Origin: Spirogloea muscicola
Taxonomy: Eukaryota; Streptophyta; Zygnematophyceae; Spirogloeales; Spirogloeaceae
DNA: 64,000 nucleotides
Assembly: GCA_009602725.1 (NCBI GenBank)
Contig: WELB01000001.1
Span: 484,621-548,620 of the forward strand
Direction of reading: 5' to 3'
Part shown: piece after piece, positions 12,901 to 63,398 of the stretch
Layout of the letters: every line of letters begins with the position of its first letter
Position numbering within the stretch: the stretch's first letter is position 1
The notes under the pieces: model-generated
Databases searched by the model: none
What the model saw: the letters and a program-made list of their open reading frames with translations, nothing else
What the model was told of the DNA's origin: nothing
Translations under genes and position numbers: made by a program

Positions 12901-14556
12901 GCACACATACATCCCTAAATGATCGAGAATTGCTGCCAGCACTACAAACCGGCATCATTTGGAAGAAACTCTGTGAATAGCTAAATGAATTCTGTCAAAT
13001 ATTGAAAGTTCAATTGTTGGTGAAAAGTGTTGCCCCCTGACCTTCTGATTGTCCTCTTTGCCTTGTCAGTGATGCCATCATCTTCACTGCTGATTATTGC
13101 TGCTTTTATGCTTGCTCTTTGCAGATGCGGTTGAGCAAGTCCCTACTTTCGGCGCTCTGCCTGAGCACGTGCAAGGCTTCATTGCTGGCGGGTGGCCAGC
13201 ATTGTCAAGTGCGATTGCACCTGCAGCTCATGATAGCAGAAGAAATGCTTCCTCTTTGGCGTGCACCTCGCCTGCGGGACTGACCGGCACTGATAAAGCA
13301 GCTGCTGTAACAAGAGCTGATGGAAATGTAGATGCTAAGCTGGATGAGGAGAACCCGTCCATGTCCGCCTGCGATGTAATAGTAGCATCTTCATCTAGGG
13401 CTGGTGATGCTAAAGAAGGCAGTCATGTGGGAGCACCAAGTGACATGACAAGGGTGCAGGCCACAGCAGATCGCCAGGAAGAACATGTACCTGAGAATGG
13501 CTTGCAGTCGGGATTGCCAGATGAGAGTGAGGGGCCTGGAGCCCCCCTCAGTGCTGCAAGAGTCTCCACCAAGCACTTCGTCTCAGTAGTCCTGCCAAGA
13601 GCCAGGTAAGTGCCTACAGAAGCTGTTGGTTGTGATAGTCGAAGTTTATGGCAGTGTTGGACGCTGCTGCATCAGCTTCTCTCTTGCAGAAGTGGTGCGC
13701 TGCATGGGCGACTGATGCCCGCAAGTAAGAGATAAGACAAGCTCATCTTTGACTTGGAACTGCTATTGATATTTGTATCAGGCACTACGACACAATCATT
13801 GTTTTGCACGCCTCGGAGGATGACGATCTGCCGCCTTCCTTAGTCTCAGCCATTCTTCAGAAGAAGCAGGGCAAAGGCATCCAGCTTGCGCTTGTGACAG
13901 TGGGCACAGTTGAGCATGACAGGCTGTTGTGCATTGACTTTGAGGTACCAAAGGGGACCAGAGGATGGGGCTTTCAGGACGAAAAGCCTCTGCCAGCTGC
14001 GTCTCCGCCCTTGGGCCTGGAATCTGTGGCCGACATCATTGTCAGGGTGGAGTTGCCGGCCGCCTGCGCAGCACCTCTGCTGCCGCGGTTACACTCCCTT
14101 GCGGAGCTTGCTATCAAGTATGTCACGAACGCCATCAGCACCGGAGCTCACGTCCTAATTGGCAAGGTATACAGGTCCCTCATGGTGGACCTGAGGATCA
14201 CCAACAGCAAGCTCCTCCACCGCGCGGCCCACATTGTGGCGGAGCTCATCAGTCTGTCGGAGGCAGGGGCCATGGAATACGTGGTGCGCGCCATCTACAC
14301 TGACGACATACTCGGCTTGGGCTTGACATATGAGGATGTGCGGCTTCTCCCAGCGTCGGAGCACATACTTAGGGCCAGCAGAAGCAGACGCATCGTCCCC
14401 CTGGCGCTGCTTCTGGCGACCGGCCTTTACTCTGTAAGGCAGGCTGCCGACATGGTCGGAAAGCCTGTAAGCGTGCGGACGCTGATTGAGGCAGACCTTG
14501 CTGCTCGCAAGAGCAAGCTCGGTGGAAAAACTATCTCCGGCTCGCTAGCAATCTAA
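9915..14556 (+). CDS. GCKR/MurQ-like double SIS-domain sugar-phosphate-binding protein
   Basis: This resembles animal glucokinase regulatory protein (GCKR) and bacterial MurNAc-6-phosphate etherase (MurQ), both of the SIS sugar-isomerase fold. Exons: 9915-10061; 10217-10276 (IQEAVDALTAIAVDI); 10634-10780 with GAGTSGRLAYCAARSYN; about 11080-11184; about 11500-11551 (VGISCGLSATSVAAQ); about 11668-11741; about 11888-12001; about 12141-12256 with TGSTRLKGGSATKILLDI; about 12363-12555; about 12727-12821 with a second glycine loop IGGTSGGLVGLIG; about 13125-13604; a short one near 13690; and about 13781-14556 (YVTNAISTGAHVLIGK, DLRITNSKLLHRAA), ending in TAA. The second SIS module and the C-terminal helical part match GCKR rather than the single-domain MurQ. 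The 13200-13540 part is a low-complexity insert of about 110 residues. The presumed ligand is a phosphosugar; enzymatic or regulatory role is unknown. Confidence 0.85.
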
Positions 14557-17714: not shown

Positions 17715-18220
17715 GGGGCCTCGGAAGCTTCCACGCGCCGAAGGGCCGCGACTGCGGGCGAGTTACCGCGAGTGCGGACTCGGCAGGTGCTCGTGCCGTC
17801 TTTGCCGAGTTCAGGGATGCGCAGGGCAGGCCTGCCCCTAAAATTCACTTTCTCGTCGCTGCTAGATTTGGCAGTCTGTCGGATGCTCGTATTCTGCCCC
17901 TCCTTGGCCATTGAATCCGCAAATATTCTCGGTCTCACTGGCGGAGTTGGGAATGGCGGTGGAGAGGAGGCATCGGTCCGCCGCGTTTGGAGATAAACGA
18001 GAGGCGGGAGGGGGATCCCGGGCTGCCGGGCAGTGTGAACGGCTCCCCGGCCGGGCGCCCCGAGCGGGCGCCCCAACCTCCCTCCCCCACCTCCCTCCTT
18101 CCAATCTCAGCACCCGTGTATTCTATTGTCAGCGGCCGCATCCTGTTGTCCTCCATGACCGCGCCAGCCGCAGCGCCGGCCTGAGGCGCCCGAGCCGCCG
18201 CCGCCGCCGCCGCCGCCGCC
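17715..18220. promoter_or_regulatory. Divergent promoter region between mARC and RLCK-VII genes
   Basis: The start codons of the minus-strand mARC gene and plus-strand kinase gene are about 506 bp apart. The interval is GC-rich at both ends, less so around 17850-17950, and ends in a GCC tract at 18195-18220. No clear core elements were seen. Confidence 0.45.
18195..18220 (+). repeat. GCC tract in the 5' leader of the kinase gene
   Basis: Eight uninterrupted GCC units run directly into the ATG of the kinase gene. Confidence 0.85.
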
Positions 18221-20839
18221 ATGGGCTGCTTCGCCTGCTTCGGCCCCGACGACGCCGCNNNNNNNNNNNNNNNNNNNNNNNNNNNNNNNNNNNNNNNNNN
18301 NNNNNNNNNNNNNNNNNNNNNNNNNNNNNNNNNNNNNNNNNNNNNNNNNNNNNNNNNNNNNNNNNNNNNNNNNNNNNNNNNNNNNNNNNNNNNNNNNNNN
18401 NNNNNNNNNNNNNNNNNNNNNNNNNNNNNNNNNNNNNNNNNNNNNNNNNNNNNNNNNCGCCGCCGCCGCAGGCTCCGCGCCGCCGCCGCCGGACGGCGAG
18501 CAGCGGCGGCGGCCGCCGGCGGGGAAGATTGCGGCGCAGACGTTCATGTTCAAGGAGCTCGCGGCCGCCACCAAGAACTTCCGCCCCGAGTGCCTCGTCG
18601 GCGAGGGCGGCTTCGGCCGCGTCTACAAGGGCCGCCTGGAGGCCACCGGCCAGGTGACGGCCGCTCAGTGGCAGCCGCTCGCTGAGCCTCGCCGCACTTG
18701 CCGGCGTCCGCATGCGCTCGTCTCTGCGAGGCCGAAGGCAGCGGCCGCCGCACACCTGTAGTCCGGCCCAGCCGTCGGTGGCGTCGCGGTCGTTGCCGCC
18801 GGCATCTTGCGGCCCGGTGTCGCCGCAAGGGCCTTGCGAAGCGCAGTTGCCTTCTCTGGCCTCGCCGGCAGCCGCACTCGCACCCTCCATGGACTTGAGA
18901 GCAGACAGACGACAGGGGCCCGCTGTTGCCGATGCATACGAATACAAGCGATCTGTCTTCAGTAGGAATGGATCTGTCATCAGAGGAAAGCAGGCTGTTG
19001 TGGGGTTCACGGCTGATGGCGGCTCGTGACAGTGGCGGCGCCGCCCGCCCACTGGCAGTCGGTGACGGCGTGATTTTGATGAAGGTCGCAGGCATGTCGT
19101 CAGCATGTGTGCAAACCTGCAACTGACGCGGCCTCCGAGGCGGCCGGCGGCGGCTGCCTTGTCGGGTCCAGGTGGTGGCGGTCAAGCAGCTCGACCGCAA
19201 CGGGCTGCAGGGCAACCGCGAGTTCCTGGTGGAGGTGCTGATGCTCAGCCTGCTGCACCACCCGAACCTCGTCAACCTCATCGGCTACTGCGCCGACGGC
19301 GACCAGCGCCTGCTCGTCTACGAGTTCATGTCCCTTGGCTGCCTTGAGGATCACCTACATGGTGCGCACTGCCGCCGAGTCTTCCTGGGCCTCGCCTAGT
19401 GCTCACTCGACCTGCCCGGTTGCTCGACCTGCTCAGTCACTCAGGCGGCAGGTCGTTGCATTGATTGGCCTGTCATTTGATGTGGTGATCATGCGGTCCT
19501 CCTCCTGGTAGTACTTAAACCCACTAAGGTTGGGTAGCCTGGATTGGAGGATGATCAAGCTTGTAGTCAAAGTCATCAGGGCAGAGCCGATTTCCCATGG
19601 TTGTCATGGTGGGGCTTCTTCTCCTCCTCGGCAGACATGGCGCCAGGAAAGGTGCCGCTGGACTGGAACACGCGGATGAAGATTGCAGCAGGCGCCGCAC
19701 GCGGGCTCGAGTACCTGCACGACAAGGCCAACCCGCCGGTGATCTACCGCGACTTCAAGTCATCCAACATCCTGCTGGACGACAGCTACCACCCGAAGCT
19801 GTCCGACTTCGGGCTTGCGAAGCTCGGCCCCGTTGGCGACAAGACACACGTGTCGACGCGCGTCATGGGCACCTATGGGTATTGTGCTCCCGAGTATGCA
19901 ATGACAGGCCAGCTGACACTCAAGAGCGACGTGTACAGCTTCGGTGTTGTGCTGCTCGAGCTCATCACCGGCCGCAAGGCCATTGACAGCTCGCGCACGA
20001 CCGGAGAGCACAATCTCGTTGCCTGGGTATGCGCCAGTCGCCACTGCCGAATGTGTCTTTGCGATTGACACAAAGAGGCCGGAGTGGCGCCTCCTCCCGC
20101 TCACTGAGAACAACTCTTGCCGGCAACCAACATATGTGCATCTCTTTCTAAGTCGCATTGATGCGAGGGCGACATGACTCAGTGCCATCAACTCGGCAAT
20201 GCAGGCAAGACCGATGTTCAAGGACCGACGGAAATTCCCGACAATGGCGGACCCGCTACTGCAGGGCCACTTCCCCATGCGCGGCCTGTACCAGGCACTC
20301 GCCGTCGCGGCCATGTGCCTGCAGGAGCAGGCGGCGACTCGGCCCCTCATCAGCGACGTGGTCACAGCCCTCACCTACCTGGCTGCGCAGGTCAGAGTGG
20401 GTGGTCAGAATGATTGCCGTGAGTTGCGGCCAAAGCGAGTCTGTCATCAGCAATGCACCATGCCATCCCCAGTCGTCACTCTAGCTGTTGACATGGGCTG
20501 CCACAGCTGACAAATCCATCATCTGGCATGGCTGCTTCGGTGCAGAAGTACGACCCCAATGCACAGCCTGCGCAGAACGTGAGGCAGGGCAGCAGCGCAC
20601 CGTCACCTCGCGGAGCGTCGCGCGGGCAGTCACCGCGGGCGGGCCGGCAGTCCAATGGCGAGTACACCAAGGACGGCCCAACTGCAGTCGCCTACGGCCG
20701 CAGCTCTCCAGAGTCCTCGGAGGAGTGGGACAGCCGGGTGGCGCGGCAAGCGTACGCCGGCAACCCGCGGGACCGCGGCATGGCGGTCGACCGGGGCTCT
20801 GGGGGCGACTGGCATGAGAGGCGTTCAGATGGGGGATGA
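18221..20839 (+). CDS. Receptor-like cytoplasmic kinase, RLCK-VII (PBS1/PBL-like)
   Basis: A plant signalling kinase that acts below cell-surface receptors. The N-terminus MGCFACFG carries Gly2 for myristoylation and Cys3/Cys6 for palmitoylation, predicting plasma-membrane attachment. Exons: 18221-18653 (interrupted by a 199-N gap) with [13 protein letters not shown] and glycine loop [11 protein letters not shown]; 19172-19361 with [19 protein letters not shown] and the hinge region; 19635-20026 with catalytic loop [34 protein letters not shown] and [11 protein letters not shown]; 20205-20390; and 20546-20839, a serine/glycine/arginine-rich tail ending in TGA. The catalytic Lys, Asp and DFG are all visible, so the kinase should be active. 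YRD instead of HRD is usual for this family. A short stretch behind the N-terminus is hidden in the gap. Confidence 0.93.
18259..18457. other. Assembly gap of 199 N inside the first kinase exon
   Basis: The gap follows [12 protein letters not shown] and precedes a proline/arginine-rich stretch coded by GCC-like repeats. It is probably a GC-rich tract that could not be read through. The coding length across it is unknown. Confidence 0.95.
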
Positions 20840-33149: not shown

Positions 33150-33530
33150 TGATTGCGTGCGAGCTAGCGAGAGAGGGAGCGAGCGAGGCAGGGGGAGGGA
33201 GAGAGGGAGGAAGAGAGGGAGGGGGGAGAAATGAGAGGGAACGAGAGGGGGAGGGCGCGCACGAGTAGGAGAGAGAGGGAGAGGGAGAGGGAGANNNNNN
33301 NNNNNNNNNNNNNNNNNNNNNNNNNNNNNNNNNNNNNNNNNNNNNNNNNNNNNNNNNNNNNNNNNNNNNNNNNNNNGAAGGAGAGGGAGAGGCGAGGCGC
33401 GAAGGGAGGAAGGGCGAGGGCGAGGGGCCGAGCGAGAGGGAGAGGAAGAGCGTGAGGAGAGGGAGAGGGGGAGGGGGAGGGGAGGGACGCCGCACGCAGA
33501 GCTGCAGGCGCAGGAGGGGGGGAGAGGGGA
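33150..33530. repeat. GA-rich low-complexity tract with 82-N gap (33295-33376)
   Basis: Long runs of GAGAGG and GGGAGA units flank a gap of 82 N. On the minus strand this is a CT-rich stretch upstream of the zinc-finger gene, a typical plant-lineage leader or promoter composition. Apparent open frames here are compositional. Confidence 0.85.
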
Positions 33531-39862: not shown

Positions 39863-40600
39863 ACATGCTGAGATGCCCCACTGGACCAGAAGTGGTGGGC
39901 ATCCACAACCTTCTCCGCGATGCACTGGCGGGCTTGATGCGCGACGCCGGCTACCGTGCAGTCTTGGAAGTCAACGATATCAAGCCTAATACCACGGACG
40001 CCCAGGGACGTCATCATCGCCGCACACTTGACATTGTGGGCGTGCAACCTGGTGGAGGACCACGGGCCCTGGTCGACGTTGTTGTAACGGAGGCGTACAA
40101 GGGACCAGCATCAACACACATTGCTGGTCACTCAGTGGGCGTTGCAAACCAAAGAAAGCTGCAGCACTACTCCGACTACCCTCAATGCGATCAGCTCCTG
40201 CCAGCGGCAATCGACGTCTTTGGTTGTCTGGGTCCTCGTTTCCACACCCTCCTCCAAAACATTGCCAATCTAGGCTACACACGTCGTGCAGATGTGTTTC
40301 CGGCTGAGTTGGGCTTGCCAGCCGCATATCTGTCTTTCTTGCGACGACGTGTTTCGGCCTGTTTGCAGCGTGCTCAGGCTAATGCCTTGCACCAGAAAGC
40401 TGCCGAGCTCTAGTTGGTGGCAGAAGGGCTTCGTATCTGACATCTAGTATTCAGGCATCGATTAGCGACCTTTATAATTTGACCCGTGGTTACTGAGCGG
40501 GTCAATTTGCTGTAGAGTATGTAGGTCTTTAGATGTGCTTACCTTTGTACTCGGCCAATTCAGTTGGCCTTCGTTTGTTTCAAATACACGAAAATATCTT
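39863..40600 (+). mobile_element. LINE copy D: second subfamily with R2-like endonuclease
   Basis: An open frame of 182 codons (39865-40413) covering the endonuclease: RRTLDIVGVQ, ALVDVVVTEAYKG, KLQHYSDYPQCDQLLPAAID and RRADVFPAELGLPAAYLSFL. It continues in another frame through ...DLYNLTRGY and TGA near 40494. The 3' part to about 40590 (GGTCTTTAGATGTGCTTACC, TACACGAAAATATCTTGACG) also occurs in copy F on the other strand at 53940-54080. The hairpin is not part of this subfamily's shared tail. Confidence 0.75.
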
Positions 40601-50941: not shown

Positions 50942-51577
50942 TCACAGGTGCCTGCCACCCCTGCCCCTGTGGTGATTGCCTCGAAAGACGAAGCTGGGAG
51001 CTGGGCCAGGGGCACCAGCAAAGTAGCTGTGATTGTGGCGGACTCCGTGAGTATGATTGGCTGTGCCATTGACGGTGCCGTTGAGCAGTTTGTTGCAATC
51101 ATGTCCATGGGTAGTGCCGTTGACAATCACACTTGTGCCGTTGGGAAAGACGCATGTGTGCGTGCCATTGCCAACCAGGGTGTGATTTCCAGCAAAGGTA
51201 CCATTGCCATGGTGGTGCCTGCCACCCCTGCCACCCCCGCCGTGGCCACCTCTGGCAAAGCCTCCTGCACATGCACATGCACATACTTCCACAAAGTAAG
51301 CACGTGCAGCACTTCCATGTAGTGTTTGCCGGCTTTGAATATCACAAGAGCGACTGATGAGGAAAAAAGGTTGCCTATTTCTAAGCAGAAGGCGCGGATG
51401 TGCTAACTCCTACTGAGAGCGTCAGTCATTGCTAAGGCATCAAGGCATCACATGGTGGAAGTATCTCTGTAAGTGTCTCCCACCCAGTGCCATATGCACC
51501 GCGTGCTCACCATCCGGCAGGGTGGCGAACACCAGCGCCACGACAGCCAAAGTGAATAGCATGCGCGAGAATGCCAT
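50942..51577 (-). CDS. Small secreted Gly/His-rich protein packed with N-glycosylation sequons
   Basis: Family not recognised. Two exons join in phase: 51577-51511 encodes a signal peptide (MAFSRMLFTLAVVALVFATL), with donor GTGAGC; 51264-50942 encodes the rest, to TGA; 129 residues in all. The mature part starts with a glycine/arginine/histidine stretch (GGHGGGGRGGRHHHGNGT). About nine or ten N-x-S/T sequons follow, mainly NGT and NHT (GNGTF, GNHTL, PNGTS, VNGTT, LNGTV, NHTHG, HNHSY). It ends in another Gly/Arg/His patch (NHHRGRGGRHL). Only two cysteines are present. Predicted to be secreted and heavily N-glycosylated; the histidines suggest metal binding, a guess. The gene at 54958-55699 is a divergent relative with the same exon-1 length and phase. 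Confidence 0.7.
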
Positions 51578-52784
51578 TCTGAGCGTGGAGATGGCTTGCC
51601 ATGCACGAACATAGCAACACCGTCAGTCAGAGCTGTGTCATGTAGCTGCGGGAAGTAAGTGGCTTCTCAAACAAAGTGGAGCAGGCATTGCTCGAGGCGT
51701 CATATACAAGCAACCCCTTATGCGCGAGCTCACTCAGCTCGGCAGCTGCAGGTCGTTTGGACATTCAACTCGCGCTGAGGCCTGTCGCTGGTTGGGCAGC
51801 CCACGAGCTTGGCGACCACTGGCCCCAAGAGACGGCGCAGCAGGCACCGCAGCGCAGGGGAGGAAAAAGGAAGCGCTTGCGAGCACTCACCTGGAGACAC
51901 GAAGGGGCCGCTGGGGCAATAACGGGAGGCCTTGTACTGGACGAGTCTGGTATGGCGGCGAAGGAGAGTGCAGTACGGGGCTCGCGGCGGGAGGGCCTTA
52001 AAAAGGAGGGCGCGTACAAGTGGCGGAGGCCACGGTGGGTGGTCAGCGTGGAATGACAAGAATCGTTATTGCTTGACTCGTCGCACCGAGACGGCGACTT
52101 CCCGTTTGCGCCGATGGGCGGTGCGACGCGGGCCCCCGAGCGGCAGCTTCGCTGTGGCCGCACAACAGAGATTCCCCGCTGGCATCTACACGTGGCCGCC
52201 GGCGTGGCCGGGCCCCGCTGCCCACGTCCCGCGAAAATATCGCGCACCTGACACCTCGGCTTCGCCAGGTGCCCTCCCCAATGCGCCCCCCATCTGACGC
52301 TCCGAGCCGGCTGCTTGGCAAACTGGAAGTGTCCATTTCTTTCTTGTGCGGGCCTCTACCACGTTGCCCCCCTTGTAGAGCTTCCACTTTCTGCCTCGCT
52401 CTTTGCACTGGCTTTTGGATAATAATATCTTGGCTTAATTTGGCCTCCCTTTCTATTTAAGCGCGCCCCTTCTCTCTCGACGAGCATCAAAGTGTGGTGC
52501 AGATACAGATAATCTCGTCCAGGATGCGCTCTTTCGATCGCCTCGCTCAAGGGAATCAAAGACGCTGACCATCCTGGGGGGGGATGACTGCGGTCCCACT
52601 CGACGAGACGCTCACGATGCATTTTGCCTCCGTGGCTCGGCCCCCTCCAGCTGCTTGAGTGACAGCGGTGGCCCGACGACAGGGGCAGGTGGGGAGGATG
52701 TTGAGCAGCCCCATCCATTGCTGCAATCTGCTGGCGCCAATGTGCAGCATTCGCCCTTGTTGTGCTGCAGCTTCCAACTTATTC
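51578..52784. other. No gene recognised; GC-rich centre and a weak second-motif copy
   Basis: 51900-52300 is GC-rich and promoter-like. Near 52400-52480 a diverged copy of the second dispersed motif is visible (GGCTTAATTTGGCCTCCC, then GCGCGCCCCTTCTCTCTC). No supported gene. Confidence 0.4.
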
Positions 52785-53670
52785 ATCATGCATCTGCCTG
52801 CTGGCCAGGCCTTGGCTGCCGCCTTCCTGTATCAATGGCCGACTCCTTCCCTGCTGCTATTTAATCACACTCACGACAGGGCTTACTGATTGGCTGTGCA
52901 TAGCGGTTTCTGTGTTGCTGCGGAATCTGCCAATTCATAGTTGTGGCTTCCCTCTAGACCTCGTCCTATTGTATGCCTGGGCTTGCCGATCACAGCCATC
53001 GTCTCTACTGGAAAACGTTTTCAGTCTTTGATTGCTCAGCTTCAGTAGCCACCGCCTCCTTGAGTACTACTTCCTCTCTTGCCTGTATGGCTGCATCTTT
53101 AGCAGCCTCGCTGCCTTACGAGCACTGGAGAAAGCGTCAGCACCCGCCTGCCAGCGAGAGCACTCTCTCTCTCCCTACTCTTCGTCAGTCCCTCAGACTT
53201 GTATAACTTTCCGACCACTCCGGCAGGCGAAGTACGCATGTAAGCTGGTGAGGATGGATGTCTTCCCTTTCTATTGATATCCACGTGGCCTTTGAGCTCA
53301 GTGGCTTAATCTATCACCAGCTTGCGCGATGCACGATGATCAGTGGCAAGAAAAGCAGGCTGGCAGCAACGCCGCCGGCTTAGGCTCTCTGGCTTCTCTG
53401 AAACCTGCGGCGTTCTCTGGCTTACGCCTTGTATCTGCATGCTGGCCGTGCCCTGGCTGCTGCCTCGGGCGATCGGCAGAGAGATTGCTACCCAGCTGCT
53501 TGTGTATCTTGACTGCGGCTGCTAATCAAGGGGTTACTGAGAGGCCGTCCTCAGTGATTGCTTGTTACCCTGCGTGCTGTGCTGCCGTCTCCATTGAGAT
53601 TTGTTATTGTGGGCTGGCGCTTCGCGGCCCTTGGCCCCTTTTAAGAGAGCTGCTTCTCCGGCACTGCCCT
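52785..53670 (+). mobile_element. Diverged LINE tails
   Basis: C-terminal remnants occur at 52790-52890 (CTGGCCAGGCCTTGGCTGCC) and 53430-53545 (GCTGGCCGTGCCCTGGCTGC to GGGGTTACTGA). Degraded hairpins follow near 52978-53000 and 53608-53630 (GGGCTGGCGCTTCGCGGCCC). Confidence 0.6.
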
Positions 53671-53929
53671 CTTCAAACGAGCTGTTCTCTGTCCTTCATT
53701 GAGTGCTCTTCCCCTCTCCAATAATTAGGCTGCTGCATATTCACTGCTGTTGTGGAAGGTGCTTCTTGTTGGGGATGTTGAGGAAACTCTCGTATCCGAA
53801 CAAAGGCTGAGAATGCACGGCTAAGCGTGTACCAGCACACCCAAATACAAGTACGTGGACTATGAGTTGGCTCACCCGCATCACAAGATCAGCTGCTAGG
53901 AGCCACCTACATAAAGGTGGGCTTGTGGG

Positions 53930-54400
53930 CTTGCATCCACCTCTGCGAAGAAAATTTCGTGTATTCGAAACAAACATAGGCCAATGGCCAAGTACAAAGG
54001 CAAGCAAGCACATCTAAATATCTACATAACCTACAGCAGGTTGACCCGCTCAAAATCCACGGGTCCAAAACATAAAGGTCGCTAACCGATGCATGAATAC
54101 TAGATGTCAGGTACGAAGCCCTTCTGTCACCAACTAGAGCTCGCCCAGCTTTCTGATGCAAGGCATTAGCCTGAGCTCGCTGCAAACAGGCCGAAACTCG
54201 ACGTCGCAAGAACGACAAATATGCAGCTGGCAAGCCCATTTCAGCCGGAAACACATCTGCACGTCGTGTGTAGCCTAGATTGGCAATGTTTTGGAGGAGG
54301 GTGTGAAATCGAGGACCCAGACAGCCATAGATGTCGATTGCCGCTGGCAGGAGCTGGTCGCATCTGCGAGGTACCCTCAGCATACCTGGCCAATATCCAG
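53930..54400 (-). mobile_element. LINE copy F, close relative of copy D
   Basis: Minus-strand fragment reading DQLLPAAIDIYGCLGPRFHT, RRADVFPAEMGLPAAYLSFL and NALHQKAGRAL. The protein differs from copy D at only a few positions over about 70 residues. The shared tail extends to about 53940 (CGAATACACGAAATTTTC). 5'-truncated at about 54375. Confidence 0.8.
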
Positions 54401-54957
54401 GGACCACCATACAGAAGCACCAACTCGTGGATGACCGGACCTAGTGATTGCTTGCGCATGCCTATAAGTTCTATTTGCTCTGTATGCTATCACCTTCGCT
54501 TCATTGTGCTCTATGACTTCTGACCCTTGTTATGTTCAGTGTGGACCTGCAAGTGCAAGTCTATGCCTTGAACAATCACAACATCAATCATGGCAACATG
54601 TTTGCAGCATGTAGACTGTGCTTCTGCAAGGCTCATGCCTTGGCAAGTCAATAGTCATCAGTTGACCAAGTGCGCAGTTTGTTTCAAGCATACTGAAACC
54701 AACTTCGATATACAGAAGACAATTCTCACCCAAGTCTTTCAGAGACAAGTGAGATATAGTGCAGGTGTGAATCAAACTGCAAAAGTAGCGACTACAGTAC
54801 GAAAACTGCCCAACTACAGTACGACAACTGCCCAACGTCCTGGCCTTGCACACATTGTCCTGGCCTTGCTCATCAGTGCCTCAGCAAATCTAGCTAAGAA
54901 AGACGACAGCAAATTACACTAAATATTCAGATAGTCCTGCCAAAAGTTTCCTAGTTC
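54401..54957. other. No gene recognised; small direct repeat
   Basis: At 54792-54834 a unit of about 24 bases (ACTACAGTACGAAAACTGCC and its variant with GACAACTGCC) occurs twice in tandem. Two CCTGGCCTTGC words follow. Nothing else was seen. Confidence 0.5.
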
Positions 54958-55699
54958 CTAGTGACCACGGAAACGACCAAAGAAGCCACCCCTGCGGCCA
55001 CCTCCATGCGTTCCATTCAAAGTCTTGTTGCCGGTAGTGCAGTTCGAGTTGAGAGTGTGGTTGTGTCCGAGAGTGTGATTGTATCCAACAGTGTGATTGT
55101 GGATAGTATGGTTGTGAGCAGTTTCATTGAACTTGGTGCCATTGTGTGTGCCGTTGTGGTGGAAAAGATGACCATGGTCTCTGCCTGGTCCATGCAACAA
55201 AAAACAAGTCCGCTGCTTAAGATCTGCAACCTCAAAACCAAGCTGCAACAAGAGAAGCAGCAGTAGCTGCAATGTATGTAGCAGAAATCTGCTTTACAAC
55301 AGGCAGGTTACTTACCATGAAGCATGCGACCTTCTACAGCAGCGTCCACTGCGCTGCCTTGACCTGCGACCGATCAAATGAAGCAAGTCAGTTGACCACA
55401 GATGAAGCTGGTGTCGGACTGATGACGCACCCCTGAACTAGCATGGACAAACTCTTGGGACATCTCATCTACCTGTGCGCAGGACCTCAGATGCATATCT
55501 TCCCTAGACCTGTAAGAGATGGTTCACAAGTTGCCTTATGCTCTTGTCTTGGAGCTCAGGCATCTCCTATTCTGTCCTTAATGATGGCAGAACCCCCAGG
55601 CTTGCCATTCAGGCCTCGATGACCAAACTCACCAAGGAGTAGCACAAATGCCACAACAAGAGCAGCCAGAAGCCCCATAAGATTGATTTGACTCGCCAT
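54958..55699 (-). CDS. Small secreted protein with dense NHT/NGT sequon repeats
   Basis: Family not recognised; relative of the gene at 50942-51577. Three exons join in phase: 55699-55633 (signal peptide MASQINLMGLLAALVVAFVL), 55363-55316 (QGSAVDAAVEGRMLH) and 55184-54958, to TAG; 113 residues. The mature protein carries about ten N-x-T sequons in roughly 60 residues: HHNGTHNGT, FNETAHNHT, HNHTVGYNHTLGHNHTL, NCTTGNKTLNGT. Spacing between HNHT-type units is 4 to 6 residues. A short Gly/Arg/Phe tail follows (GGGRRGGFFGRFRGH). Exon 1 has exactly the same coding length (67 nt) and phase as its relative, supporting common origin. No transmembrane segment apart from the signal peptide. It could be a cell-wall or mucilage glycoprotein; function unknown. 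Confidence 0.7.
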
Positions 55700-60978: not shown

Positions 60979-63398
60979 ATGGGACGTACATGGAAGCACC
61001 AGAAGCTCGCCGATGGCCTGCATGGTGACAGGATGGGTAAGACAGGCAGACCGTCTTCGGCCAAACTGGTCAAGTACAAAGCACCCACTATGCTCCCAAT
61101 GATAGTGTCGCTGTGGATCAATGCCGGCAAGATCTCACGCAGCTTGGGTGTGCATCCAAGGCGCTTCGACGCTGAGCGAGCACTTCTGCAGGTAGGTCAT
61201 ATACAGGAGATTTCTCGCCCATTTAACTCAATTTGTTGCAGCAGCCGCACACCAATGGAGCTCTGCTTGCAGCGGCACTGTTGATTAACAGACTGATCGT
61301 ATTGGGCCTCTTGCCGGCTCTCTTGCATCACATCGTGATGCAGGCGTGCAAGGCCACTGGTCTTCAGGACTTTGGCGAGCCAGGCTTTATGGAGCCACTG
61401 CAAATACTACTGAAAGGCCTTGACGACGAGGCACAGCTGACTGCTTTTGGGAGGTCATTTGCTTGGGACATGCTACAACGCCTTCTCCAGGTGGTCATGT
61501 TCCCAACGCAGCTTAACTCATCCGCGCTCAACTGCAAAGTACAGGCGAGAGGAAGGTTGCAGCCCAAATCTACCATGATCTATGCTCAGGATTAAATCGA
61601 CATTGCTGAATTGCAGGGCAGGCTGCATCTGGTGGACATCATGGGCCGCCACCCCGAAATTGATGAGGAGACTCTAGAGGTAGTATTTCCTGACCTTCGC
61701 AAGCATTGGAGACTGCCTCAGACTGCCCCGGAGCCTGCCCAGCTTGTTTGGATCAGTGATTGCCAGGTTTCTGTGCATTGTAAAATGGCAGGAGCCATTG
61801 TTTGTGGTGGGCCTGCCAAGAACAGGCACGACCCTGCTTCACCACCTCCTAGCCCAGGACACGAGTAGCCGCTCTCCTGCCACCTGGGAGGTCCACTACA
61901 TCTACCCACCACCTGATGCAGCCACGTACACAATAGACCCCCGCATTGCGCGTATGGAGGAAACATTGGCCATGCTTGACGCTCTGCTGCCCACTTTCAA
62001 GCGAATCCACCACGTGACAGGTAAGCCGCAGCTTGGAGCAGTAGCCTCATCTCGTTCAAGCCAAGCTGTGTCTCTCATTCAGGAAGCAGCCATGCAGAAT
62101 TAGCTCATTCGTGCTGCTTGCGGGGTTCGCGACAGCACAATCGCCACAAGAGTGCATGGGCTTCATGATGTACGACTTCGCCTCCTTTGCCTTCCCCGGT
62201 GTTCATTTCGATCTCCCAACCTATTGGACGTGGTACGAGGGGGCAGACCTTTACCCAACATATAAGTTCATGCGCTGGCAACTCAAGTATCTTCAGGTGA
62301 GCTGCAGCCATCTCACATTGCTGCACTTCCTGGTACTCTTTTACTGGATATCACATGCTGAATCGCTGAATAATCTCCTCTGCCTACCGGGTCAGTGGAG
62401 AGGGCCCAAGGGCCAGCGTTGGGTCCTCAAGTGCCCAGCTCACTTATGGAGCATGAAGTACCTCATCAAGGTACATACACGCATATGCCAGTTACGCAGC
62501 ATATGTACAATCTAGCGTTAGAATACAGATATCCGAGCATGTCTGACAGGGTAAGATGCACCTGTGGTTCGTATGACCTCCTAGAAGAATGTCTTGGCCA
62601 GTTGTGACCACAGCTCATTATCGGCAATGGTCAGGCATTCCCGGATGCTCGCTTCATCTTCACGCACAGAGACCCGCTCAAAACGCTTGCATCAGCAGCA
62701 AGCCTCATAACAACATCCCAGCGACTTGTCTCGCAAAGGGTCAATATGTCAAAGGTACCAAGACCTATCCTTGACCACCTTAACAAGCTGGAGTCTCAGC
62801 TTTGGAGCACGAGGATGCATCTGTTATGGTCCTTGCTATCGTGCTGTGCTATCAGGAGCGCCTCTGCTGCTACTGACAGAGCGCATGAGATTCGTACAGA
62901 ATGCAGCCGAATGGGCACCAAGATTTGCAACTGCCCTTGCAAGCTGCGAAGCAGCACGATATGCACATGGCCTGTGGGATCCCAAAAGAGCTGCTGATTT
63001 GCGCTTCGACGAACTGATAAGATCACCGGTGGAGAGCATGCAGACAATTTACAGTGGGTTCGGCTACAAGGTGGGCAAAAATAGACCGTGCTGTCCCAGA
63101 ATATAGGGCATTTAGATTGTTGTCTCACAGAATTTGTGTGAGAGCCTCATCTGCCTTTGACCATGAAATGACTATTACAGCCAGTATGCCCACCTTCAGA
63201 ACACTGCATGGTTGCGTGATTGTGCAGATGACAGAGGCGCTGCAGGGTCGCATGAATACATTCCTCAGGGAACAAGAGCGAGACAAGCACGGGGCTCACC
63301 AGTATAACTGGGCTGACACTGGACTGGATGAGGGACATGAGCGTAATCGCTTCTCCTCATACGAGCAAAGATTTGACATTCCAAGGGAGCTGCTATAG
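60979..63398 (+). CDS. Bacterial-type sulfotransferase family protein
   Basis: A PAPS-dependent sulfotransferase of the kind common in actinobacteria and proteobacteria (Sulfotransfer_3-like); substrate unknown. Exons: 60979-61191; 61344-61490 (GLQDFGEPGFMEPLQILLKG); 61617-61679 (MGRHPEIDEETLE); about 61767-62021 with the 5'-phosphosulfate loop FVVGLPRTGTTLLHHLLAQD; 62136-62296; about 62389-62470 (QRWVLKCPAHLWSMKYLIK); about 62633-62754 with the 3'-phosphate site FIFTHRDPLKTLASAASL; about 62878-63070; and 63229-63398, ending in TAG. Length is close to 400 residues, as usual for the family. Joining exon 3 to exon 4 at the obvious splice sites leaves the frame one base off, so there is a sequence error, a missed exon or a real lesion. 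A short hydrophobic stretch (TMLPMIVSLWI) lies near residue 37. Confidence 0.85.

Follow-up and report, generated by a model that had tools for sequence, protein, structure and literature searches.

Spirogloea muscicola carries a small family of genes, A and C, whose predicted products are small, secreted, disordered chains with an array of N-x-T sequons and a basic tail. The chances are judged about even that these proteins are N-glycan carriers with sequons under selection; gene B, a neighbour of A that also encodes sequons, is treated as separate in this reading.

Gene A lies on the minus strand of the window (the whole stretch of 64,000 nucleotides analysed), with its start codon at 55699 and its stop codon ending at 54958; this is exactly where the earlier note had placed it. 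Three exons of 67, 48 and 227 nt, all on this strand, join to encode a protein of 113 residues. Exon 1 (55633..55699, 67 nt, ending in phase 1) encodes a signal-peptide-like start with a best 15-residue hydropathy of 3.01, at residue 8; there is no further strongly hydrophobic stretch beyond it, and the GT donor is kept in three homeologs. Exon 2 (55316..55363, 48 nt; GQGSAVDAAVEGRMLHG), which the earlier note leaves out, supplies the end of the putative signal peptide and the start of the mature chain; its AG/GT borders are kept in the three homeologs, and its counterpart in gene C is 45 nt long. The likely cleavage site falls in this exon, between SAVDA and AVEG, and fits the -3,-1 rule; signal peptides are judged here solely by hydropathy and this rule. 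Exon 3 (54958..55184, 227 nt including the stop) encodes the array of ten N-x-T sequons, followed by a basic Gly/Arg tail, and shows no indel among the three homeologs.

If cut at this site, mature A is 83 residues long and holds 10 sequons, all N-x-T and 4-6 residues apart; sequons so closely spaced may not all be occupied. Part of the array is an 18-nt tandem repeat (55051..55101, minus strand; 2.8 copies at 84%). The tail that follows the sequons is GGGRRGGFFGRFRGH, with a net charge of +5 in the last 22 residues. A single-sequence AlphaFold2 model of exon 3 has a mean pLDDT of 52 and a pTM of 0.13; such a low-confidence model is probably what a disordered chain would give, a single sequence being weak evidence.

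Translation of the window in six frames gives 26,088 stop-free 60-residue segments, 105 of which have at least five sequons; all 105 lie inside A or B. When the residues of mature A, B and one C copy are shuffled, the mean is 1.6, 1.3 and 1.1 sequons respectively, and the observed number is reached in 0 of 20,000 shuffles for each. The density in mature A is about 60 sequons per 500 residues (10 in 83). This is unusual against human secreted sequon-bearing proteins, for which the available part of PMC10987669 gives a mean of 3.9 per 500 residues. Proline is absent at +1 and +3 in all 29 sequons of A and B on contig C1 and of C on contig C158, and 28 of the 29 are N-x-T. AAC and AAT codons are mixed among the sequons; the array is thus not a fresh DNA repeat. 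For the N codons, a recent DNA repeat was dropped as an explanation on this ground, and a repeat is kept as the likely origin of the array.

The relatives of A are the C genes on contigs C220 and C158, which protein A matches at E values of 0.001-0.01 (0.00127 for one of them). At the nucleotide level, A matches C220 over 49 nt at 88% (E 1.6e-8) and C matches A on contig C70 over 48 nt at 85% (E 1.7e-6). Both genes follow one plan, with three exons, phase-1 junctions, GT-AG borders kept in the A copies and the C copies, and an exon 2 that encodes a VDAA-type cleavage region. The exons measure 67/48/227 nt in three A copies and 64/45/335 nt in two C copies; the C genes have the cleavage region VDAAKGG, ten sequons and the tail GGKKGGKRG. 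Contig C220 holds two tandem C genes (Ca and Cb) and C158 holds one. Cb (C220:206292-207117; exons 64/45/310 nt) is frameshifted and shows a 24-base gap in exon 3; it is a pseudogene, a variant or an assembly error. A C copy on a third contig was looked for in the genome and not found; weak matches to C occur on contig C4 (E 5.89, with one stop) and contig C14 (E 7.95).

Gene B is on the same strand as A, has two exons and encodes 129 residues. Its exon 1 (51511..51577, 67 nt, phase 1, minus strand) is signal-peptide-like; exon 2 (50942..51264, 323 nt including the stop, minus strand) encodes a Gly/Arg/His-rich start, nine sequons and a His/Arg/Gly tail. Several points of the earlier note agree with this structure: the spacing of about 3.4 kb (from the start codon of B at 51577 to the stop of A at 54958), the runs of sequons (ten in A, nine in B) and a first exon equal in length and phase (67 nt, phase 1). 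The same is true of its remark that A and B have little other identity. A genome search with protein B at E <= 10 recovers its own three copies and nothing else, and A and B match in neither direction at this threshold; when the A+C profile is compared with the B profile, 12 columns align at a probability of 12.6% (E 0.0023).

The proposal that A and B define a small family therefore stands in part: a family exists, and on sequence similarity the sequon-array family is A and C, with no demonstrable relation of B to A. B falls outside it, with two exons and no detectable similarity, and could still share an old origin with it. The equal 67-nt exon was dropped as proof of common origin. Exon 1 of C, the relative of A, has 64 nt, and the neighbourhood of signal-peptide cleavage sites (positions 20-40 in plants, according to the available part of PMC1626468) is enriched in phase-1 introns, so equal length is a poor guide. 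B is best read as a separate His/Gly-rich protein, predicted to be secreted, with a looser sequon array.

Pfam contains no family matching the A, B or C proteins at E <= 1, and the A+C profile has no match among solved structures at E <= 10. The B profile matches four solved structures, namely antibody light chains and a nanobody, with a best E of 0.12; these are taken as chance. The A+C alignment gives 41 pattern matches in viral_contigs and 30 in genome_contigs, and the B alignment gives 113 in viral_contigs; none is confirmed, which leaves no viral or prokaryotic relative in these scans. A word search of the literature (titles and abstract starts) finds no such protein family described, its partial coverage not being proof of absence.

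The genome sequence searched comprises 471 contigs and 153 Mb. All four loci queried (A, B, a sulfotransferase exon and a GKRP-like exon) have a single copy on each of contigs C1, C70 and C79, where their order is the same and A and B are adjacent and on the same strand. The collinear three-copy loci in the window are 13753-14553, 50942-55699 and 61684-62100. Two non-sequon exons compared across these contigs have dS of about 0.02-0.17, as after a recent triplication; a recent whole-genome triplication of S. muscicola is reported in the available part of PMC9065682. There are also 92 matches to GRAS in the genome, many of which form sets of roughly three and some of which lie on the window's contig, and 14 control genomes have none. 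GRAS genes mark zygnematophytes and land plants. Light-harvesting proteins are many-copied in the genome (68 matches). Among solved structures, the best match to one LHCII-type exon is a chain named LHCI-2, ahead of land-plant LHCII chains and, further down, Chlamydomonas chains.

Other repeated sequence is found in the window. Open frames at 39989-40378 (minus strand) and 54170-54520 (plus strand, just past the 3' end of gene A) have a clearly similar stretch, …VCSLDWQCFGGGC…, and are probably a dispersed repeat or transposon remnant. Frames with recurring GWL...PLSSMGEP or SPCPHW-type strings occur at about 36400, 38940, 40860, 56500, 57300 and 57660, which suggests another interspersed repeat. 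There are 285 N in the window; N runs flanked by low-complexity sequence lie at about 18200-18500 and 33300-33400.

Divergence, indels, dN/dS and pN/pS together show that constraint on the genes is real but mild. All three A copies and all three B copies keep an intact frame, as do two of the three C copies. Exonic indels are absent in A and between the two intact copies of C, whereas they occur in flanks and most introns; the B exons have one two-codon gap (tallied as two gap openings in another count). C exon 3 (6.9% divergence, against 12-13% in introns) and B exon 2 (5-6%, against 11-15%) change about half as fast as introns. A exon 3 (4.4, 7.5 and 8.8%) is slower than intron 1 (5.6, 11.4 and 10.7%) and not slower than intron 2 (4.6, 7.6 and 3.8%). 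C exon 1, at 18.8%, is above the C introns; across the C genes, exon 1 diverges by 15.6-20.3% and introns by 3.4-13.1%.

Whole-gene dN/dS is 0.92, 0.40 and 0.52 for A, 0.32, 0.69 and 0.53 for B, and 0.61 for C; in the C1-C70 pair of A, 0.92 overall becomes 2.66 in the mature part, which has one synonymous change. As a yardstick, a neighbouring exon gives 0.16-0.37 and a second one (57 codons) gives 0.16, 0.69 and about 0. When each family contributes a single pair (C70-C79 for A and for B, C158-Ca for C), the nonsynonymous changes number 56.5 out of 88, against 75.6% expected, and pooled pN/pS is 0.58 (P = 0.008). The basic tails hardly change among copies. Free drift outside the sequons, as proposed earlier, is thus too strong a description.

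Sparing of sequons is assessed from the minimum amino-acid changes in the mature chain that fall on N, X and S/T codons. The comparison set consists of homeologs and paralogs of the same genome, standing in for sister-species orthologues. Sequon counts are 10, 9 and 10 in A (one sequon is lost on C70, N to K), 10 and 10 in C, and 9, 9 and 7 in B. When A and C are pooled without B, a grouping in line with the homology result but chosen with the data already in view, sequon codons take 2 of 29 changes against 9.1 expected (P = 0.0017; a small test); for N and S/T codons only, 1 is observed against 6.1 expected (P = 0.009). C alone has 0 of 16 changes on sequon codons (4.3 expected, P = 0.007) and A alone has 2 of 13 (4.8 expected, P = 0.086, not significant). 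B alone has 7 of 15 (4.35 expected; P of this or fewer 0.96), and with all three pooled the sparing is not significant (9 changes against 13.5 expected, P = 0.094).

Exon 3 of C contains a 66-nt internal duplication with units 73% alike. The two sequons of the first unit have 6 synonymous and 0 nonsynonymous differences, against 1.5 and 10.5 outside (Fisher P = 0.0015, on rounded counts); Ca gives 6 and 0 against 5 and 14 outside (P = 0.0026), this being the same duplication and hence not independent. Non-sequon histidine columns have changed in 4 of 12 cases in A, 4 of 16 in C and 0 of 12 in B. From these three results, A and C behave as if sugar sites matter, small as the numbers are, and in B the histidine and Gly/Arg parts seem to matter more than the sequons. 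Selection for glycan display, which the earlier note had suggested for both neighbours, thus finds support in A and C and none in B.

The sequons may instead be a by-product of repeats. The genes would then encode His/Gly/Arg-rich basic secreted peptides, with metal-binding, wall-binding or antimicrobial roles, and the sequons would be carried along from the 18-nt unit G-H-N-H-T-L. The 18-nt tandem repeat in A and the 66-nt duplication in C are consistent with this, as are the histidine content of the mature chain (13-18% across eight copies) and the 12 non-sequon histidine columns of B, which are unchanged while B sequons change. This explanation is somewhat unlikely: in A and C it is the non-sequon histidine columns that change (8 of 28) while sequons are spared, and the sequon codons of the duplicated C units differ synonymously only. 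It is quite unlikely that these are simply weakly constrained, lineage-specific genes, real or recently real and of low importance, whose sequons persist mostly via short divergence and shared ancestry. Pooled pN/pS of 0.58 (P = 0.008, one pair per family), the intact frames of every A and B copy (three each) and of two of the three C copies, and the lack of exonic indels in A or the intact C pair despite indels in flanks and most introns all argue against it. It draws on whole-gene dN/dS of 0.32-0.92, compared with 0.16-0.37 in one neighbouring exon (about 0 to 0.69 in the second, short one), as well as on the frameshifted C copy, the third-contig C copy that was not found and the turnover of sequons in B.

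A further alternative is that A and B arose long ago by tandem duplication of a single gene and have since lost all resemblance except their architecture. They are same-strand neighbours on all three homeologous contigs, and both have a signal-peptide-like, 67-nt, phase-1 exon 1, a sequon array and a basic Gly-rich tail. Common descent of the two is possible though doubtful, given no sequence match at E <= 10 either way, a profile probability of 12.6%, three exons in A against two in B, and the 64-nt exon 1 in C, the relative of A.

As putative N-glycan carriers, the A and C products can be compared with several known systems. Arabinogalactan-proteins and hydroxyproline-rich wall glycoproteins of plants and charophytes resemble them in small size, secretion, a mass that sugar could dominate and a likely location in wall or mucilage; theirs are O-glycans on hydroxyproline, whereas the sites here are N-linked sequons. 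Nor are the chains proline-rich: mature A has 0 P in 83 residues in three copies, B has 4-5 and C has 11-12, with 1-2 AP/SP/TP pairs in the mature C chain. Secreted plant glycine-rich proteins (GRPs) share the signal-peptide-like start and the Gly/His/Arg-rich stretches, most clearly with B, but glycine repeats do not dominate here (Gly 18-20% in A, 15% in C, 22-24% in B) and a dense sequon array is not known as a GRP feature. Vertebrate histidine-rich glycoprotein is histidine-rich, N-glycosylated and secreted, and has cystatin-type domains; A, B and C share the histidine richness without any Pfam domain found. The salivary basic proline-rich glycoproteins of animals are repetitive, N-glycosylated and secreted. 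They are alike in their disordered repeats with recurring N-glycosylation sites but are proline-rich, and they are likened here by description only.

A signal sequence, an N-glycan array and a basic tail together suggest a small extracellular glycoprotein, and retention of sequons in A and C hints that carrying sugar is their job. The chain would enter the ER, where the sequons would receive N-glycans, and the product would go to the wall or mucilage. There the sugars would retain water or interact with partners, and acidic polysaccharides could serve as the anchor for the basic tail (Gly/Arg or Gly/Lys). The array may have grown by short tandem and internal duplications and been retained by selection on sequons more than on intervening residues. 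In the zygnematophyte Penium, high-mannose, complex and paucimannose N-glycans are described on secreted proteins in the available part of PMC6027541; gel-like mucilage is common in zygnematophytes according to that of PMC10762512.

A broader reading, which is distinctly unlikely, would make A and C the founding members of a family of mucin-like matrix proteins built on N-glycans, in the algae that are sister to land plants; apart from the sugar sites and the anchor tail, selection would preserve little of the disordered chain. N-glycans would then take the hydrating or gel-forming role that arabinogalactan-proteins fill with O-glycans, possibly as part of an air-exposed mucilage life. If the reading of A and C as glycan carriers is false, they are an ordinary set of repeat-built, lineage-specific secreted genes. 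If it is true, they would offer a compact case of selection on glycosylation sites as such and a candidate for one of the little-known proteins of zygnematophyte mucilage.
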